Part shown: piece by piece, positions 26,760-51,691 of the stretch
Numbering within the stretch: the stretch's first letter is position 1
Layout of the letters: each line of letters starts with the position of its first letter
Assembly (NCBI RefSeq): GCF_018531375.1
Contig: NZ_JAHBOH010000001.1
Location: 868,001-932,000 of the forward strand
Origin: Cellulomonas fulva
GTDB lineage: Bacteria > Actinomycetota > Actinomycetes > Actinomycetales > Cellulomonadaceae
Reading direction: 5' to 3'
Length of the DNA: 64,000 bases
The notes under the pieces: model-generated
Told to the model about the DNA's origin: nothing
The model's database searches: none
Seen by the model: only the letters and a program-made list of their open reading frames with translations
Program-made: the position numbers and the translations under genes

Positions 26760-26842
26760 GCGCGAGTGGCGGAACGGCAGACGCGCTGGCTTCAGGTGCC
26801 AGTGTCCGAAAGGGCGTGGGGGTTCAAATCCCCCCTCGCGCA
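26760..26842 (+). tRNA. tRNA-Leu (CAG)
   Basis: Acceptor stem GCGCGAG pairs with CTCGCGC. The anticodon stem CTGGC/GCCAG encloses loop TTCAGGT with anticodon CAG. A long variable arm (TGTCCGAAAGGGCGTG) marks a class II tRNA, and the T arm is GGGGGTTCAAATCCCCC. CCA is not encoded. It reads the frequent CTG codon of this GC-rich genome. Confidence 0.97.
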
Positions 26843-26850
26843 CACAGATC

Positions 26851-47275: not shown

Positions 47276-49174
47276 TCAGCCGAACGTGAACGAGTAGACC
47301 TGCAGGCCCGGGTCCAGGGCGATCTCGAGCGTGCCCGCGCCCGGGCCGTCGTCCCGCACCAGGTCGCGGCCGTCCGGCGGGCCGGAGACGTCCACGGTGC
47401 GGCGGTCGACCACCGCACCCTCGTCGTCGCGGACCGTCACCCGCACCTGCCCCTCCCCGCCGACGACCATGCGGACGACGTCGCCGTGGTACCGCAGCCG
47501 CAGCGCTGCGTCCGGGCCGGCCGTCGCGCCCTGGTAGTCGGTGGTCCACGTCCCCCCGAGCGCCACGGTGTCCGCGGGCTGCTCGGCGGGCAGCCTGTAG
47601 GTCGACTCCCCCTCGCGGTACCCGCCCGCCAGGTTGTTCCGCTTGCCGATGCCGAGGAAGGTCTCCGGTGTCCGGGAGCCGAGCTCCGCCTCGGCGACGT
47701 CGGTCCGCTCCGGGAGCTCGACGCCCGGGTCCGCGGCCACGAGGAGCTCACGGATCAGGTCCTCGGTCTCGTCGTACCCGCCCTCCCCCTGGGACACCTG
47801 CCGGACCTGCCCGTCCGCGTCCACCAGGTAGCGCGCGGGCCAGTAGCGGTTCCGGTACGCGGTCCAGGTGGCGTAGGAGTTGTCCTGCGCCACCGGGTAG
47901 GTGATGCCGAACCGGCGCGCGCCCTCCTCGACGTTGCGCGTCTCGCGCTCGAAGGCGTACTCGGGCGTGTGCACGCCGATCACGACGAGGCCCGCGTCGC
48001 GGTACGCCTCGTCCCACGCGACCAGGTGCGGCGTGGACCGCTGGCAGTTGATGCAGGAGTACGCCCAGAAGTCGACCAGCACCACCCTGCCGCGCAGGTC
48101 CGCGAGCGCCAGCGGGTCGGAGTTGAGCCACGTGTCGATGCCGCGCAGCTCGGGTGCCGGGCCGCAGTCCTGCAGCTCCGGTGAGTCGTCCGTGCAGCGG
48201 CTCAGGCCCTCGTTCTCCTCGGTGACCAGGCCGCCGAGGTCGAGGCTGCGCTGGACCGTCTCGTTGGCGGCGATCCGGTCCTGCAGCTGCTCCGTATAGC
48301 CGGGCAGCGCGCGCTGCAGCGCGTCGGTCAGGTTGAGCGCGAGGGCCAGCGCGAGCACGAGCATCGTCGCGCCGCCGATCGCCCGGAACAGGCGCTGCCG
48401 CGTCCGGAAGGCCGCGATCCGCTCCGCCGCACGCCGGCCCGCGAGCGCCAGCAGCAGCAGCGGGATCGCCGCGCCGACGGCGAACGCGACCGTGAGGACC
48501 ACGGTCCCCAGGCCGACCTCGCCCGTCGCCCCCGCCACGGTGATCGCCGCGAGCACCGGGCCCGCGCACGGCACGTACACCGCCCCGAGCCCCAGGCCGA
48601 GCACGAACCCGCCGCGGCCCGCACCGGGCGCCCGGCGCGGCGCGAGCCGGGCGAACGGCCGCTCCACGATCTCCTCGAGACCCGGCACCAGGAGCGCGAG
48701 GCCCATCACGACGAGCACGGCGATGCCCGCCCACCGCAGCAGGTCCTGCGGCAGGTGCAGCGCGTTGAGCAGCAGCGTCCCGACGAGCGTCGCGAGCGTG
48801 AAGCTCGTGACCAGCCCGGCGACCACGAGGTAGGGGCGGCTCCCCGCGCCGCGCCGCGGTGCCGGCTCGTCGGACGCCGCGCCCCCGGCCGGCGGGTCGC
48901 CCGCAGGCGCGTCACCCGGGACGGGCAGCGTCGCGGTGCCCGCCGCGCGCCCCTGGGTGAGGAACGACGGCTGCGCCATCGCGCCCACCCGGGGGCCCGC
49001 GGACGTGCCGCCGCCGGCGGGTGCCGACGCGACCGTCACCCCACGCGGTCGGGACCGGGCGCCCTCGACGCCGCCGGAGAAGAAGACGACCGGCAGCACC
49101 GGCAGGATGCACGGCGAGATCCCCGTGACCAGGCCGCCGACCAGGCCGATGAGCGCGAGCGTGAGCAGGTCCAT
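47276..49174 (-). CDS. dipZ: DipZ-type protein: CcdA/DsbD membrane domain plus thioredoxin and C-terminal beta module
   Basis: A 632-residue membrane thiol-redox protein that should carry reducing power across the membrane. The CcdA-like part has [18 protein letters not shown] (near residue 18), a Gly/Pro-rich cytosolic insert (about 45-105), and [20 protein letters not shown] (near 195) with the paired cysteine. After six to seven helices comes an external TlpA-like thioredoxin with [11 protein letters not shown] near 375. Then follows a C-terminal beta-rich module ([30 protein letters not shown]) like that of mycobacterial DipZ. ATG 49174 starts seven bases after the GCGAAC -10 of a SigK-like promoter. 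It diverges from the fasciclin gene. Confidence 0.92.
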
Positions 49175-49181
49175 GCCACCG

Positions 49182-49208
49182 GTTCGCGGCCGGGACGGCG
49201 GCGGATGG
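49182..49208 (-). promoter_or_regulatory. SigK-like promoter of dipZ
   Basis: On the minus strand CCATCC (49208-49203) and GCGAAC (49187-49182) are separated by exactly 15 bases. The same motif and spacing precede the fasciclin gene and sigK itself. The -10 ends seven bases before the dipZ ATG, so the dipZ mRNA is probably leaderless. Confidence 0.75.
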
Positions 49209-49244
49209 GTGCGACGAGCCCCCGGAACCCGTCGCAGATCGGAC

Positions 49245-49271
49245 CCATCCGCCGCGCGCACCGCCCCGAAC
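49245..49271 (+). promoter_or_regulatory. SigK-like promoter of the fasciclin gene
   Basis: CCATCC (49245-49250) and CCGAAC (49266-49271) are separated by 15 bases. Together with the dipZ promoter it forms a divergent pair: the two -35 elements sit in an inverted repeat (GCGGATGGGT ... ACCCATCCGC) about 30 bases apart. The leader to the ATG at 49332 is about 55 bases and contains a CCCCGCCGGGGCG hairpin. Confidence 0.75.
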
Positions 49272-49331
49272 CCCTGCCATGACCGCCCCGCCGGGGCGCC
49301 GTCAGATGGATCGGAACGAGGGAGTGGACCC

Positions 49332-50066
49332 ATGCGCACCAGCACCAGGACCCGAACCACCCGCATCAGCGCCGCCGTGTTCGCGGGCGTCGTCGGCCTC
49401 ACGCTCACCGCGTGCTCGTCGGGCGACGACGACACCGCCGACGCGCCCATGCAGTCCGAGTCGGCCATGCCGGACGACGCCATGACCGACGACTCGATGA
49501 CCGACGACATGACGGACGACGCGATGACCGACGAGCCGACCGACGACTCGATGATGGCCGACCCGGCCGCGGACCTCGTCGGCCCCGGATGTGCGGCCTA
49601 CGCCGAGCAGGTGCCGGACGGTCCCGGCTCGGTCGAGGGCATGTCCACCGACCCCGTGGCCGTCGCCGCGTCGAACAACCCGATGCTGACCACCCTGACC
49701 GCCGCGGTCTCCGGCCAGCTCAACCCGAAGGTCGACCTGGTCGACACGCTCAACGGCGACGAGTTCACGGTGTTCGCGCCGGTCGACGACGCGTTCGCGA
49801 AGATCGACGGCAAGACGATCGACTCGCTGAAGACCGACGACAAGACCCTCACCACGATCCTCACGTACCACGTCGTGCCCGGGCAGCTCTCGCCGGACCA
49901 GGTCGTCGGTGACCACAAGACCGTGCAGGGCGAGACCGTGAAGGTCACCGGCTCGGGCGACGACCTCATGGTCGGCGACGCCAAGGTGGTCTGCGGCGGC
50001 GTGCACACCGCCAACGCCACGGTCTACCTCATCGACACGGTGCTGATGCCGCCGTCGACGATGTGA
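49332..50066 (+). CDS. Fasciclin-domain lipoprotein (MPT70/MPT83 type)
   Basis: Secreted, lipid-anchored fasciclin protein of 244 residues. The signal peptide ends in a lipobox (LTLTACSS near residue 28). A Met/Asp-rich spacer with MTDD repeats (about 45-75) is followed by one FAS1 domain: [38 protein letters not shown] (H1-type box) and [14 protein letters not shown], ending [12 protein letters not shown] (H2-type). The cysteines in GPGCAAY and KVVCGGVH match a disulfide of MPT70-like proteins. It is preceded by a SigK-like promoter, and the divergent gene is dipZ, as for mpt70/mpt83/dipZ in mycobacteria. Confidence 0.93.
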
Positions 50067-50078
50067 CCTCCTGACCCG

Positions 50079-50118
50079 GTCGGGCCGCCCGCCGCGCCCC
50101 CTGCGCGGGCGGCCCGAC
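50079..50118 (+). terminator. Perfect 14-bp hairpin after the fasciclin gene
   Basis: GTCGGGCCGCCCGC (50079-50092) pairs perfectly with GCGGGCGGCCCGAC (50105-50118), starting 13 bases after the stop. It should terminate the plus-strand transcript. Confidence 0.8.
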
Positions 50119-50150
50119 CTGCGGGTCGGTCGCTCCCCGACCGACCCCGC

Positions 50151-50183
50151 GCAGCCCCCTCGCCCGCCGGTCGAGGGGGCTGC
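50151..50183. terminator. Hairpin between fasciclin and rskA genes
   Basis: GCAGCCCCCTCG (50151-50162) pairs perfectly with CGAGGGGGCTGC (50172-50183). Placed 44 bases beyond the rskA stop, it probably ends the sigK-rskA transcript. A further stem, GGGTCGGTCG / CGACCGACCC, lies at 50124-50147. Confidence 0.7.
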
Positions 50184-50226
50184 GTCGTGCTTGGTGGCTG
50201 CGTCGGGCGGGCGACGGGCGTGGCCG

Positions 50227-50976
50227 TCAGGAGGCGAGGACGACGAGCGGGTCCGTCGTGGGCTGCGGCGAGCCCCCGGCCGGCTCGAGCGTCATCGCGA
50301 GCGCGGCGCCCTCGACGAAGTCGTCGACGACCATCGCGGTCTGCGAGCCGCCCTCGGCCATCATCCCCGCGGAGACGGGGTCGCCGGTCGCGACCACCCA
50401 CAGCTGGTAGACGTGACCGGGTGCCGGGTCCGGCAGGTCCTGCGTCATGAACACCGCGCCGTCGGTCGCGACGAGGGCCGAGGCCGTCCCGCCGCCCGCG
50501 ACGTCGGCGTGCATCATCTCCGCGTCGGGGTCCTTGAGCATCGCGGCCAGGTGCGCCTGCTCGGTCCGCATCGCGTCGAGCTCCCGGTGCTGCTGCACCG
50601 CCAGGCCGGCCGGGATCGCGGCGCCGATCGCGACCGCGGCCGCGATCGCCGCCCAGCGGGCGGGCGTCCGACGGCGCGGCGCGAGCGGCACGACGGCCGC
50701 GACCTCGCTCTCGTCCGCCGCGCGGACCTCGTCGACGCGCTGCGCGTCGCCCTGAGGGGTCGCCGCGGCGGCCGCGAGGACGCGTCCGCGCAGGTCGGCG
50801 GGGGGCTCGGCGGCGAGCGCCGTGGCCAGGTCGGCCGCGGCCGCGCGCAGCTCGGCGAGCTCGGCCGCCGCGTCGGGGTCGCGTGCGACGAGCGCGTCGA
50901 CGGCCCGCCGCTCGTCGTCGGAGACGGCGTCCAGGGCGTACGCGCCGAGCAGCTCGCGCGTCTCGTCGTCCCTCAT
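50227..50976 (-). CDS. rskA: Anti-sigma factor, RskA type
   Basis: Membrane-bound anti-sigma factor of 249 residues. The cytosolic N-terminus has the anti-sigma fold (ETRELLGAYALDAVSDDERR, VDALVARDPDAAAELAELRA). One membrane helix follows (RWAAIAAAVAIGAAIPAGLA, about residues 108-127) and then an extracellular RskA-type domain (HVYQLWVVATGDPVSAGMM, MTLEPAGGSPQPTTDPLVVL). It would hold SigK inactive until proteolysed. ATG 50976 overlaps the sigK stop (ATGA), so the two are co-made in balance. Confidence 0.94.
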   Translation of the reverse strand: MRDDETRELLGAYALDAVSDDERRAVDALVARDPDAAAELAELRAAAADLATALAAEPPADLRGRVLAAAAATPQGDAQRVDEVRAADESEVAAVVPLAPRRRTPARWAAIAAAVAIGAAIPAGLAVQQHRELDAMRTEQAHLAAMLKDPDAEMMHADVAGGGTASALVATDGAVFMTQDLPDPAPGHVYQLWVVATGDPVSAGMMAEGGSQTAMVVDDFVEGAALAMTLEPAGGSPQPTTDPLVVLAS

Positions 50977-51638
50977 GCGCTCACCCCCAGGCAGGTGCGC
51001 AGCCGCAGCAGACCGTCCCGGATCCGGGACTTCACCGTCGGCAGGGCGGCCCCGAGCTCGTCGGCGACCTCACGGTAGGTGCGGCCGCCGTAGTAGGCCA
51101 GCTCCACCGCGCGCCGCTGCGTGTCGGTGAGCGTCTCCAGGCAGTGCTGCACGCGCACGCGCTCGAGGGACGTCTCGACGCTCTCGGCGACCTCGTCGAA
51201 CGGGCGCGCGGGCTGCAGGTCGAGGTCGTGCTGGTCCCGGTCGCGCTGCGCCTGCACCGACCGGACCCGGTCGACCGCGCGGCGGTGCGCGGTCGTCAGC
51301 GTCCACGTCCGGGCGGTGCCGAGCTGCTCGTCGAACCGCGCCGCACCCCGCCACACCTCGAGCCAGACCTCCTGCGCCACCTCGGCCGCGTGGTCCGGGT
51401 CCCGCAGCACGCGCAGGCACACGCCGAAGACGGCCGAACCCAGCAGGTCGTACAGCCGCGCGAACGCGCCCTGGTCCCCGCGCGCGACGTCCTGGACGAG
51501 CGCGTCGGCGGCGCGGTCGGGCGCACGCACGGGCGGGTCGTCGGTCGGCACGCGGGTCAGTGTCTCCTGTCGGTGGCGCGGACGCGCGCCGGGCACCCGG
51601 AACGGTCCCGCGACGCGCACCGCGAGGGTCGTGGACAT
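50973..51638 (-). CDS. sigK: ECF RNA polymerase sigma factor, SigK type
   Basis: A 221-residue extracytoplasmic-function sigma factor. Region 2 is GDQGAFARLYDLLGSAVFGV, CLRVLRDPDHAAEVAQEVWL and EVWRGAARFD; region 4 is LTDTQRRAVELAYYGGRTYR, EVADELGAALPTVKSRIRDG, LLRLR. ATG 51638 has GGAGG seven bases upstream and lies downstream of a SigK-like promoter (CCATCC-N15-ACGAAC), so the gene probably drives its own synthesis. It is coupled to rskA. Likely targets dipZ and the fasciclin gene carry the same promoter motif within 3 kb. Confidence 0.94.
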   Translation of the reverse strand: MSTTLAVRVAGPFRVPGARPRHRQETLTRVPTDDPPVRAPDRAADALVQDVARGDQGAFARLYDLLGSAVFGVCLRVLRDPDHAAEVAQEVWLEVWRGAARFDEQLGTARTWTLTTAHRRAVDRVRSVQAQRDRDQHDLDLQPARPFDEVAESVETSLERVRVQHCLETLTDTQRRAVELAYYGGRTYREVADELGAALPTVKSRIRDGLLRLRTCLGVSA

Positions 51639-51664
51639 CGGTCGCCTCCGGTGGGTCGTCCGTG

Positions 51665-51691
51665 GTTCGTCACGACGAGGGGCGCGGATGG
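51665..51691 (-). promoter_or_regulatory. SigK-like autoregulatory promoter of sigK
   Basis: On the minus strand CCATCC (51691-51686) and ACGAAC (51670-51665) are 15 bases apart, the same spacing as in the dipZ and fasciclin promoters. The -10 ends 26 bases before the sigK ATG, leaving room for its SD. Confidence 0.75.

Follow-up and report, generated by a model that had tools for sequence, protein, structure and literature searches.

Putative SigK promoters before dipZ, a fasciclin lipoprotein gene and sigK-rskA in Cellulomonas fulva

The sigK locus and its three putative promoter elements

We analysed 64,000 nucleotides of the Cellulomonas fulva genome (assembly GCF_018531375.1, contig NZ_JAHBOH010000001.1, positions 868,001 to 932,000; hereafter "the window"), in which a single motif, CCATCC-N15-nCGAAC, stands before three neighboring genes: dipZ, a fasciclin (FAS1) lipoprotein gene (fas), and sigK, which encodes an extracytoplasmic function (ECF) sigma factor. 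Coordinates without a locus name are those of the window.

The sigK gene (50973..51638, minus strand) begins at ATG 51638 with GGAGG upstream. Its product passed the NF007228/PRK09646 model of SigK (253.2 bits, cut-off 226), and among solved structures the best match is SigK 4nqw. Both cysteines of 4nqw have aligned counterparts, C166 and C216, which lie 50 residues apart, as do C133 and C183 of the mycobacterial protein; cysteines of this type are not universal in ECF19 (PMC7509140). The adjoining rskA (50227..50976, minus) encodes a membrane anti-sigma factor with a clear RskA_C domain (90.4 bits, cut-off 29.4) and an RskA_N score below the cut-off (20.3 bits against 27). It overlaps sigK by 4 bases, and co-transcription of the two is therefore expected. 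The fasciclin lipoprotein (49332..50066, plus) is MPT70/MPT83-like, matching the MPT70 structure 1nyo at E 1.1e-66, and contains a linker rich in methionine and aspartate (49413..49574, plus; 8 methionines in 54 residues). DipZ (47276..49174, minus) is a fusion of a CcdA-like membrane part, a TlpA-like thioredoxin domain and a C-terminal domain. DsbD_TM, AhpC-TSA and Thioredoxin_10 all score over their cut-offs, and the solved DipZ 5cyy matches at E 8.7e-104. The layout is that of a SigK regulon, with sigK-rskA adjoining a fasciclin lipoprotein gene that bears a candidate SigK site.

The putative dipZ promoter occupies 49182..49208 (minus; -35 CCATCC at 49208-49203, -10 GCGAAC at 49187-49182), that of fas 49245..49271 (plus; CCATCC at 49245-49250, CCGAAC at 49266-49271), and that of sigK-rskA 51665..51691 (minus; CCATCC at 51691-51686, ACGAAC at 51670-51665). 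An earlier note on this DNA had reported the motif before these three genes, and all three positions and sequences proved exact on re-reading. The predicted transcription starts are 49174, 49279 and 51657, respectively; the first, placed by the conserved 7-nucleotide offset described below, is the A of the dipZ ATG.

These three sites were the only matches to CCATCC-N14..16-nCGAAC in the window, compared to 0.07 expected from 100 shuffled sequences. Widening the spacer between CCATCC and CGAAC to 10-20 bases returned the same three (0.33 expected). The window contains 37 CCATCC sites, 34 of them with no CGAAC partner. The earlier note was right that the other CCATCC sites it listed are unpaired, while its coordinates for them were either right or one base off (correctly 9093, 10929, 26687, 46752 and 63863). 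All three promoter sites share the longer pattern ACCCATCCG-N15-CGAACC, of which the 3.74-Mb genome holds no further perfect copy. Matches to this pattern with one or two mismatches were inspected and none had a start codon at 7 nucleotides, so they were taken as chance; this search was non-exhaustive and missed L008, a site with two mismatches that is described below.

The genome-wide search for CCATCC-N14-16-nCGAAC that the earlier note had proposed gave 10 matches, five N15 and five N14. That note had also held that its reading would fail if the motif were equally frequent inside coding regions. Judged by eye in this genome, all five N15 sites stand before genes; four of the N14 sites are inside genes and one (L003) is intergenic. 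An automated sorting of 114 sites from the genus by open reading frames was discarded because spurious long frames in GC-rich DNA cover known dipZ and fas promoters (discarded counts: 48 upstream and 44 inside genes in SigK-positive genomes, 10 and 12 in SigK-negative ones).

One possibility is that the three sites are unrelated matches that happen to be neighbors. Single matches do arise by chance: some N14 matches are inside genes, and SigK-negative genomes of the family average 1.8 matches. However, none of the 100 shuffles reached three, and other genera have the sites in the same places. We regard coincidence as extremely improbable.

To score the sites we used a weight matrix built from 59 promoters of other genomes, in which the lowest training score was 21.4. 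The fas, sigK-rskA and dipZ sites scored 37.3, 31.1 and 28.0, whereas the next position in the window reached -3.9 and the highest score in five shuffled windows was 4.4. Outside the core, the matrix prefers A at -36, C at -35, G at -28, GC at -16/-15, and C at -13 and -7.

The motif across genomes and its link to SigK

The family set comprised 150 Cellulomonadaceae genomes, 87 with SigK at E 1e-20 and 63 without. SigK-positive genomes carried a mean of 4.63 N15 sites and SigK-negative genomes 1.79 (p 1.8e-14, uncorrected for kinship, as are the other p-values for genome counts in this section). The reversed motif, used as a control, gave 0.18 and 0.21 sites, respectively. At least three N15 sites were present in 79 of the 87 SigK-positive genomes. 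Among the 17 members of the genus in this set, the ranges did not overlap (4-9 sites with SigK, 0-2 without). In a larger genus set of 22 SigK-positive and 18 SigK-negative genomes the medians were 4 and 1 (p 2.2e-5), and dipZ occurred in 11 of the 22 and in none of the 18 (p 3.2e-4). Ten of these 11 dipZ genomes, C. fulva included, have the exact motif 7 nucleotides before the ATG; at the same place the eleventh (L320) reads CCATTC.

We examined the position of the motif in 41 SigK loci of the family, namely the window and the loci of 40 of the 86 other SigK-positive genomes. It stands before fas in 22 of 23 loci, L077 being the one without it. By script, it precedes dipZ in 16 of 21 loci, with misses in L092, L093, L095, L108 and L109; in L108 the motif is in fact present with the ATG at 7 nucleotides, and the script had misjudged the start. 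The script found it directly before sigK in 25 of 41 loci. In 10 of the 16 misses the motif lies ahead of a lipoprotein gene situated upstream of sigK (L072, L074, L078, L082, L098, L100, L103, L104, L105 and L106), two were misjudged starts with the motif present (L096 and L099), and in L102 a lipopeptide gene next to sigK is preceded by the variant CCATCC-N15-GCGAAG. The remaining three, L077, L092 and L109, had no such motif.

Beyond the family, the best 80 of 537 confirmed named loci (924 kb) contained 61 N15 matches, 37 ending in CGAAT and 24 in CGAAC. Six other spacers together gave 6 matches in the same loci, and the reversed control gave 2 over seven spacers. SigK-binding sites have been reported to be highly conserved between Actinobacteria (PMC7509140). 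In its exact form, the SigK site is widespread and not universal.

Several observations weigh against assigning the motif to SigK. Fifteen of the 63 SigK-negative family genomes hold at least three sites, and one SigK-negative member of the genus (G446) carries seven. The genomes are related, and the p-values carry no correction for it. Of the best 80 of 537 named sigK genes, 58 lack the exact motif within 350 nucleotides upstream while 22 have it, and in a phylum sample only 13 of 40 loci contain at least one motif. Finally, the training sites of the weight matrix were picked by their exact core, so that its core columns are fixed by construction.

It could also be speculated that these sites are read by another ECF factor, either in place of SigK or alongside it. 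Promoter use can overlap between ECF factors, and the genome encodes a SigK-like paralogue (G000:C1:1045933-1046460) to which the SigK model gives 111.4 bits, less than its cut-off. However, paralogues of about 105-115 bits are found in five SigK-negative genomes of the genus (G102, G115, G121, G127 and G144) that have only 0-2 sites each, which points to SigK rather than to the paralogue, and the motif is found upstream of sigK itself. We consider this explanation improbable. The earlier proposal that the sigma factor drives itself and both neighbors gains support from the match to the SigK model, from the positions of the motif in the SigK loci of the family and from the site counts that track SigK, and it remains a prediction from sequence.

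Predicted start position and leaderless dipZ mRNA, and further candidate targets

Downstream of the motif, the spacing is fixed. In all 64 promoters of the 41 family loci, the three of the window among them, a purine occupies nucleotide 8 after the -10 element, and 63 have a pyrimidine at nucleotide 7. In the sites of the genus this pyrimidine-purine step occurs in 69 of 92 cases from SigK-positive genomes and 10 of 22 from SigK-negative ones (p 0.010), a comparison that is independent of the discarded sorting by reading frames.

The repeated element might instead be the binding site of a DNA-binding regulator and not a promoter, as polymerase binding cannot be read from sequence alone. Against this, the element is made of two blocks at a fixed 15-base distance and always points in the direction of the gene, a pyrimidine-purine start step follows at a fixed distance, and the element equals the site reported for SigK (PMC7509140). 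We consider a regulator site very improbable.

The most likely explanation, which we hold with high confidence from comparative evidence, is that a single ECF sigma factor, SigK, uses all three sites as promoters. RskA would hold SigK until an envelope signal frees it. RNA polymerase with SigK would then read ACCCATCCG-N15-CGAAC and start 8 bases after the -10 element, at a purine that follows a pyrimidine. In this way SigK would raise sigK-rskA, an autoregulation that includes its own inhibitor, and would raise the fasciclin lipoprotein gene as well as dipZ, whose mRNA would have the ATG as its 5' end and undergo leaderless translation.

The dipZ prediction follows from the position of the start base. 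Nucleotide 8 coincides with the first base of the ATG in all 16 dipZ promoters, and we infer that the dipZ mRNA is leaderless and that this is conserved among relatives. Across the 150 genomes, an ATG lying 3-11 nucleotides after CGAAY is at exactly 7 nucleotides in 72 of 106 SigK-positive cases and in 0 of 12 SigK-negative cases, although some of the 72 are not start codons, such as the ATG at 49279 in the fas leader of the window. Among the best 80 of 537, loci of Nocardiopsis, Amycolatopsis, Actinomadura, Micromonospora and Rhodococcus likewise have reading frames that begin with a GTG or ATG at 7 nucleotides. The fixed offset means that leaderless SigK targets can be proposed from sequence alone. 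Literature searches on leaderless SigK promoters and on Cellulomonas, SigK and fasciclin, judged on titles and abstract openings, returned nothing on this offset.

A GC-rich hairpin in the fas leader (49280-49304), close to the predicted transcription start, is not claimed for the window, where it was no better than shuffles (z +0.8). It is strong in many relatives, including L081, L084, L089 and L097 (35 leaders, mean z -1.43, 21 with z < -1).

Two N15 sites lie elsewhere in the genome. The strong one, L008 (G000:C1:2144171-2144197, matrix score 32.8), stands 7 nucleotides before the ATG of a membrane-anchored molybdopterin oxidoreductase, the same layout as dipZ, and this gene is likely a fourth SigK target in the genome. 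The enzyme's sequence, truncated where the locus ends, is closest to sulfite oxidases and dehydrogenases, and it scores below every equivalog cut-off. The motif also precedes relatives of the enzyme confirmed by tblastn in L168 (7 nucleotides, N16 spacer), L202 (76 nucleotides) and L225 (67 nucleotides). A core role in the genus was rejected: the gene is present in all seven SigK-negative genus members of the 150-genome set, and no exact site lies near it in any of the six further SigK-positive members with the gene (G041, G057, G083, G131, G136 and G148). The oxidoreductase would at best be a lineage-specific target.

The weak site, L002, lies before an EspC-like gene whose relatives, all weak, occur in 6 of the 39 other genomes of the genus. 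Its matrix score of 10.3 is below the lowest training score, and we rejected it as a fifth target; it is probably a chance match.

The motif was also seen at other loci. In three other Cellulomonas genomes (L210:479-505, L211:459-485 and L212:2656-2682) it lies 7 nucleotides upstream of the ATG of a gene for a small helix-turn-helix protein that by eye is of LuxR type and whose mRNA is predicted to be leaderless. In several family genomes (L214, L217, L223, L224, L229, L054 and L079) it precedes a gene for a small membrane protein, putatively DUF4383. At L107:11547-11573, L226:2751-2777, L227:368-394 and L228:354-380 it precedes CHRD-like exported proteins and, by eye, a YcnI-like protein; the CHRD-like protein of L107 scored 24.0 bits against a cut-off of 24.1. 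The only tRNA found in the window, tRNA-Leu (cag), is at 26760-26843.

Methionine-rich lipoproteins and known systems

The lipoproteins of the loci examined differ in methionine content according to whether the motif precedes them. In the 45 residues after the lipid cysteine, lipoproteins behind a motif have a mean of 4.20 methionines (n=45) and the others 0.91 (n=56; p 6.6e-15, uncorrected for relatedness, with fasciclin proteins drawn from SigK-positive genomes only). By group, the means with and without the motif are 4.23 (n=31) and 1.61 (n=18, without the exact motif) for fasciclin lipoproteins, 3.92 (n=13) and 1.00 (n=1) for a helical family, and 7 (n=1) and 0.57 (n=37) for other lipoproteins. 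The helical family is encoded before sigK (L072:5996-7300 and 12 relatives). Its members have 425-440 residues, two helical repeats and invariant histidines; the family gave no Pfam or NCBIfam match over cut-off and no clear fold match, and no similarity to the fasciclin family was detected. Beside sigK in two loci are stand-alone methionine-rich lipopeptides of 94 residues (L108:7693-7977) and 104 residues (L102:7671-7985), each with 13 methionines and built of M(S/T)DD-like repeats. Among the papers searched, none mentioned both SigK and methionine-rich proteins.

Methionine-rich lipoproteins behind SigK motifs hint at an oxidant- or metal-buffering role in the envelope. Tentatively, and with more doubt than confidence, the SigK regulon could be pictured as an envelope system that buffers oxidants or copper. 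The fasciclin proteins, the helical-repeat lipoproteins and the stand-alone lipopeptides would act as sacrificial sponges and DipZ would carry reducing power outward, joined by the molybdoenzyme in some lineages. With its mRNA leaderless, as predicted, DipZ could in this picture be translated under conditions where leadered targets are not. If true, the picture would supply a function for the SigK regulon and a trigger that can be put to the test; PMC7509140 describes what sets off the SigK cascade as unknown.

A possible parallel is the SigF/NrsF system with mrpX and yedYZ, which defends against hypochlorite by methionine cycling in the periplasm (PMC4623255); a similar system with a methionine-rich peptide has also been described (PMC10151825). 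As in the SigF/NrsF system, there is here an ECF factor paired with an anti-sigma factor, a methionine-rich exported segment predicted to be under its control (the linker in the window and the lipoproteins of relatives), and a molybdopterin enzyme of the same superfamily as a likely target. In contrast, the methionine-rich stretch here is a lipoprotein linker, with a stand-alone lipopeptide in L108 and L102 only, and the L008 molybdoenzyme is nearer to sulfite dehydrogenases. It scores below the cut-off for MsrP/YedY (45.6 bits against 207) as well as for SorA (94.9 against 600), and we therefore do not file the locus as a member of the mrpX/yedYZ type. The parallel with the hypochlorite defence is a lead.

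Also among the closest known systems is the mpt83-sigK-rskA cassette with its SigK regulon (ECF18/ECF19; Veyrier 2008, as cited in PMC7509140). Like that cassette as described there, the C. fulva locus combines SigK and RskA in one operon with an MPT70/MPT83-like fasciclin lipoprotein and DipZ, has a SigK site before both sigK and fas, and encodes a SigK with two cysteines 50 residues apart. It is unlike the cassette in that dipZ has its own promoter, divergent from that of fas and predicted to be leaderless, and in that the fasciclin linker is methionine-rich. The -10 element also differs, being CGAAC here while CGAAT is the commoner form outside the family, as the counts above indicate. With all core SigK parts within 5 kb, an environmental Cellulomonas could serve as a safe model for testing the promoter, the start base, leaderless dipZ and the proposed role in methionine oxidation or copper. 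Neither the leaderless offset nor the methionine-rich cargo was met in the literature searched; the trio itself belongs to the already known kind of SigK site.

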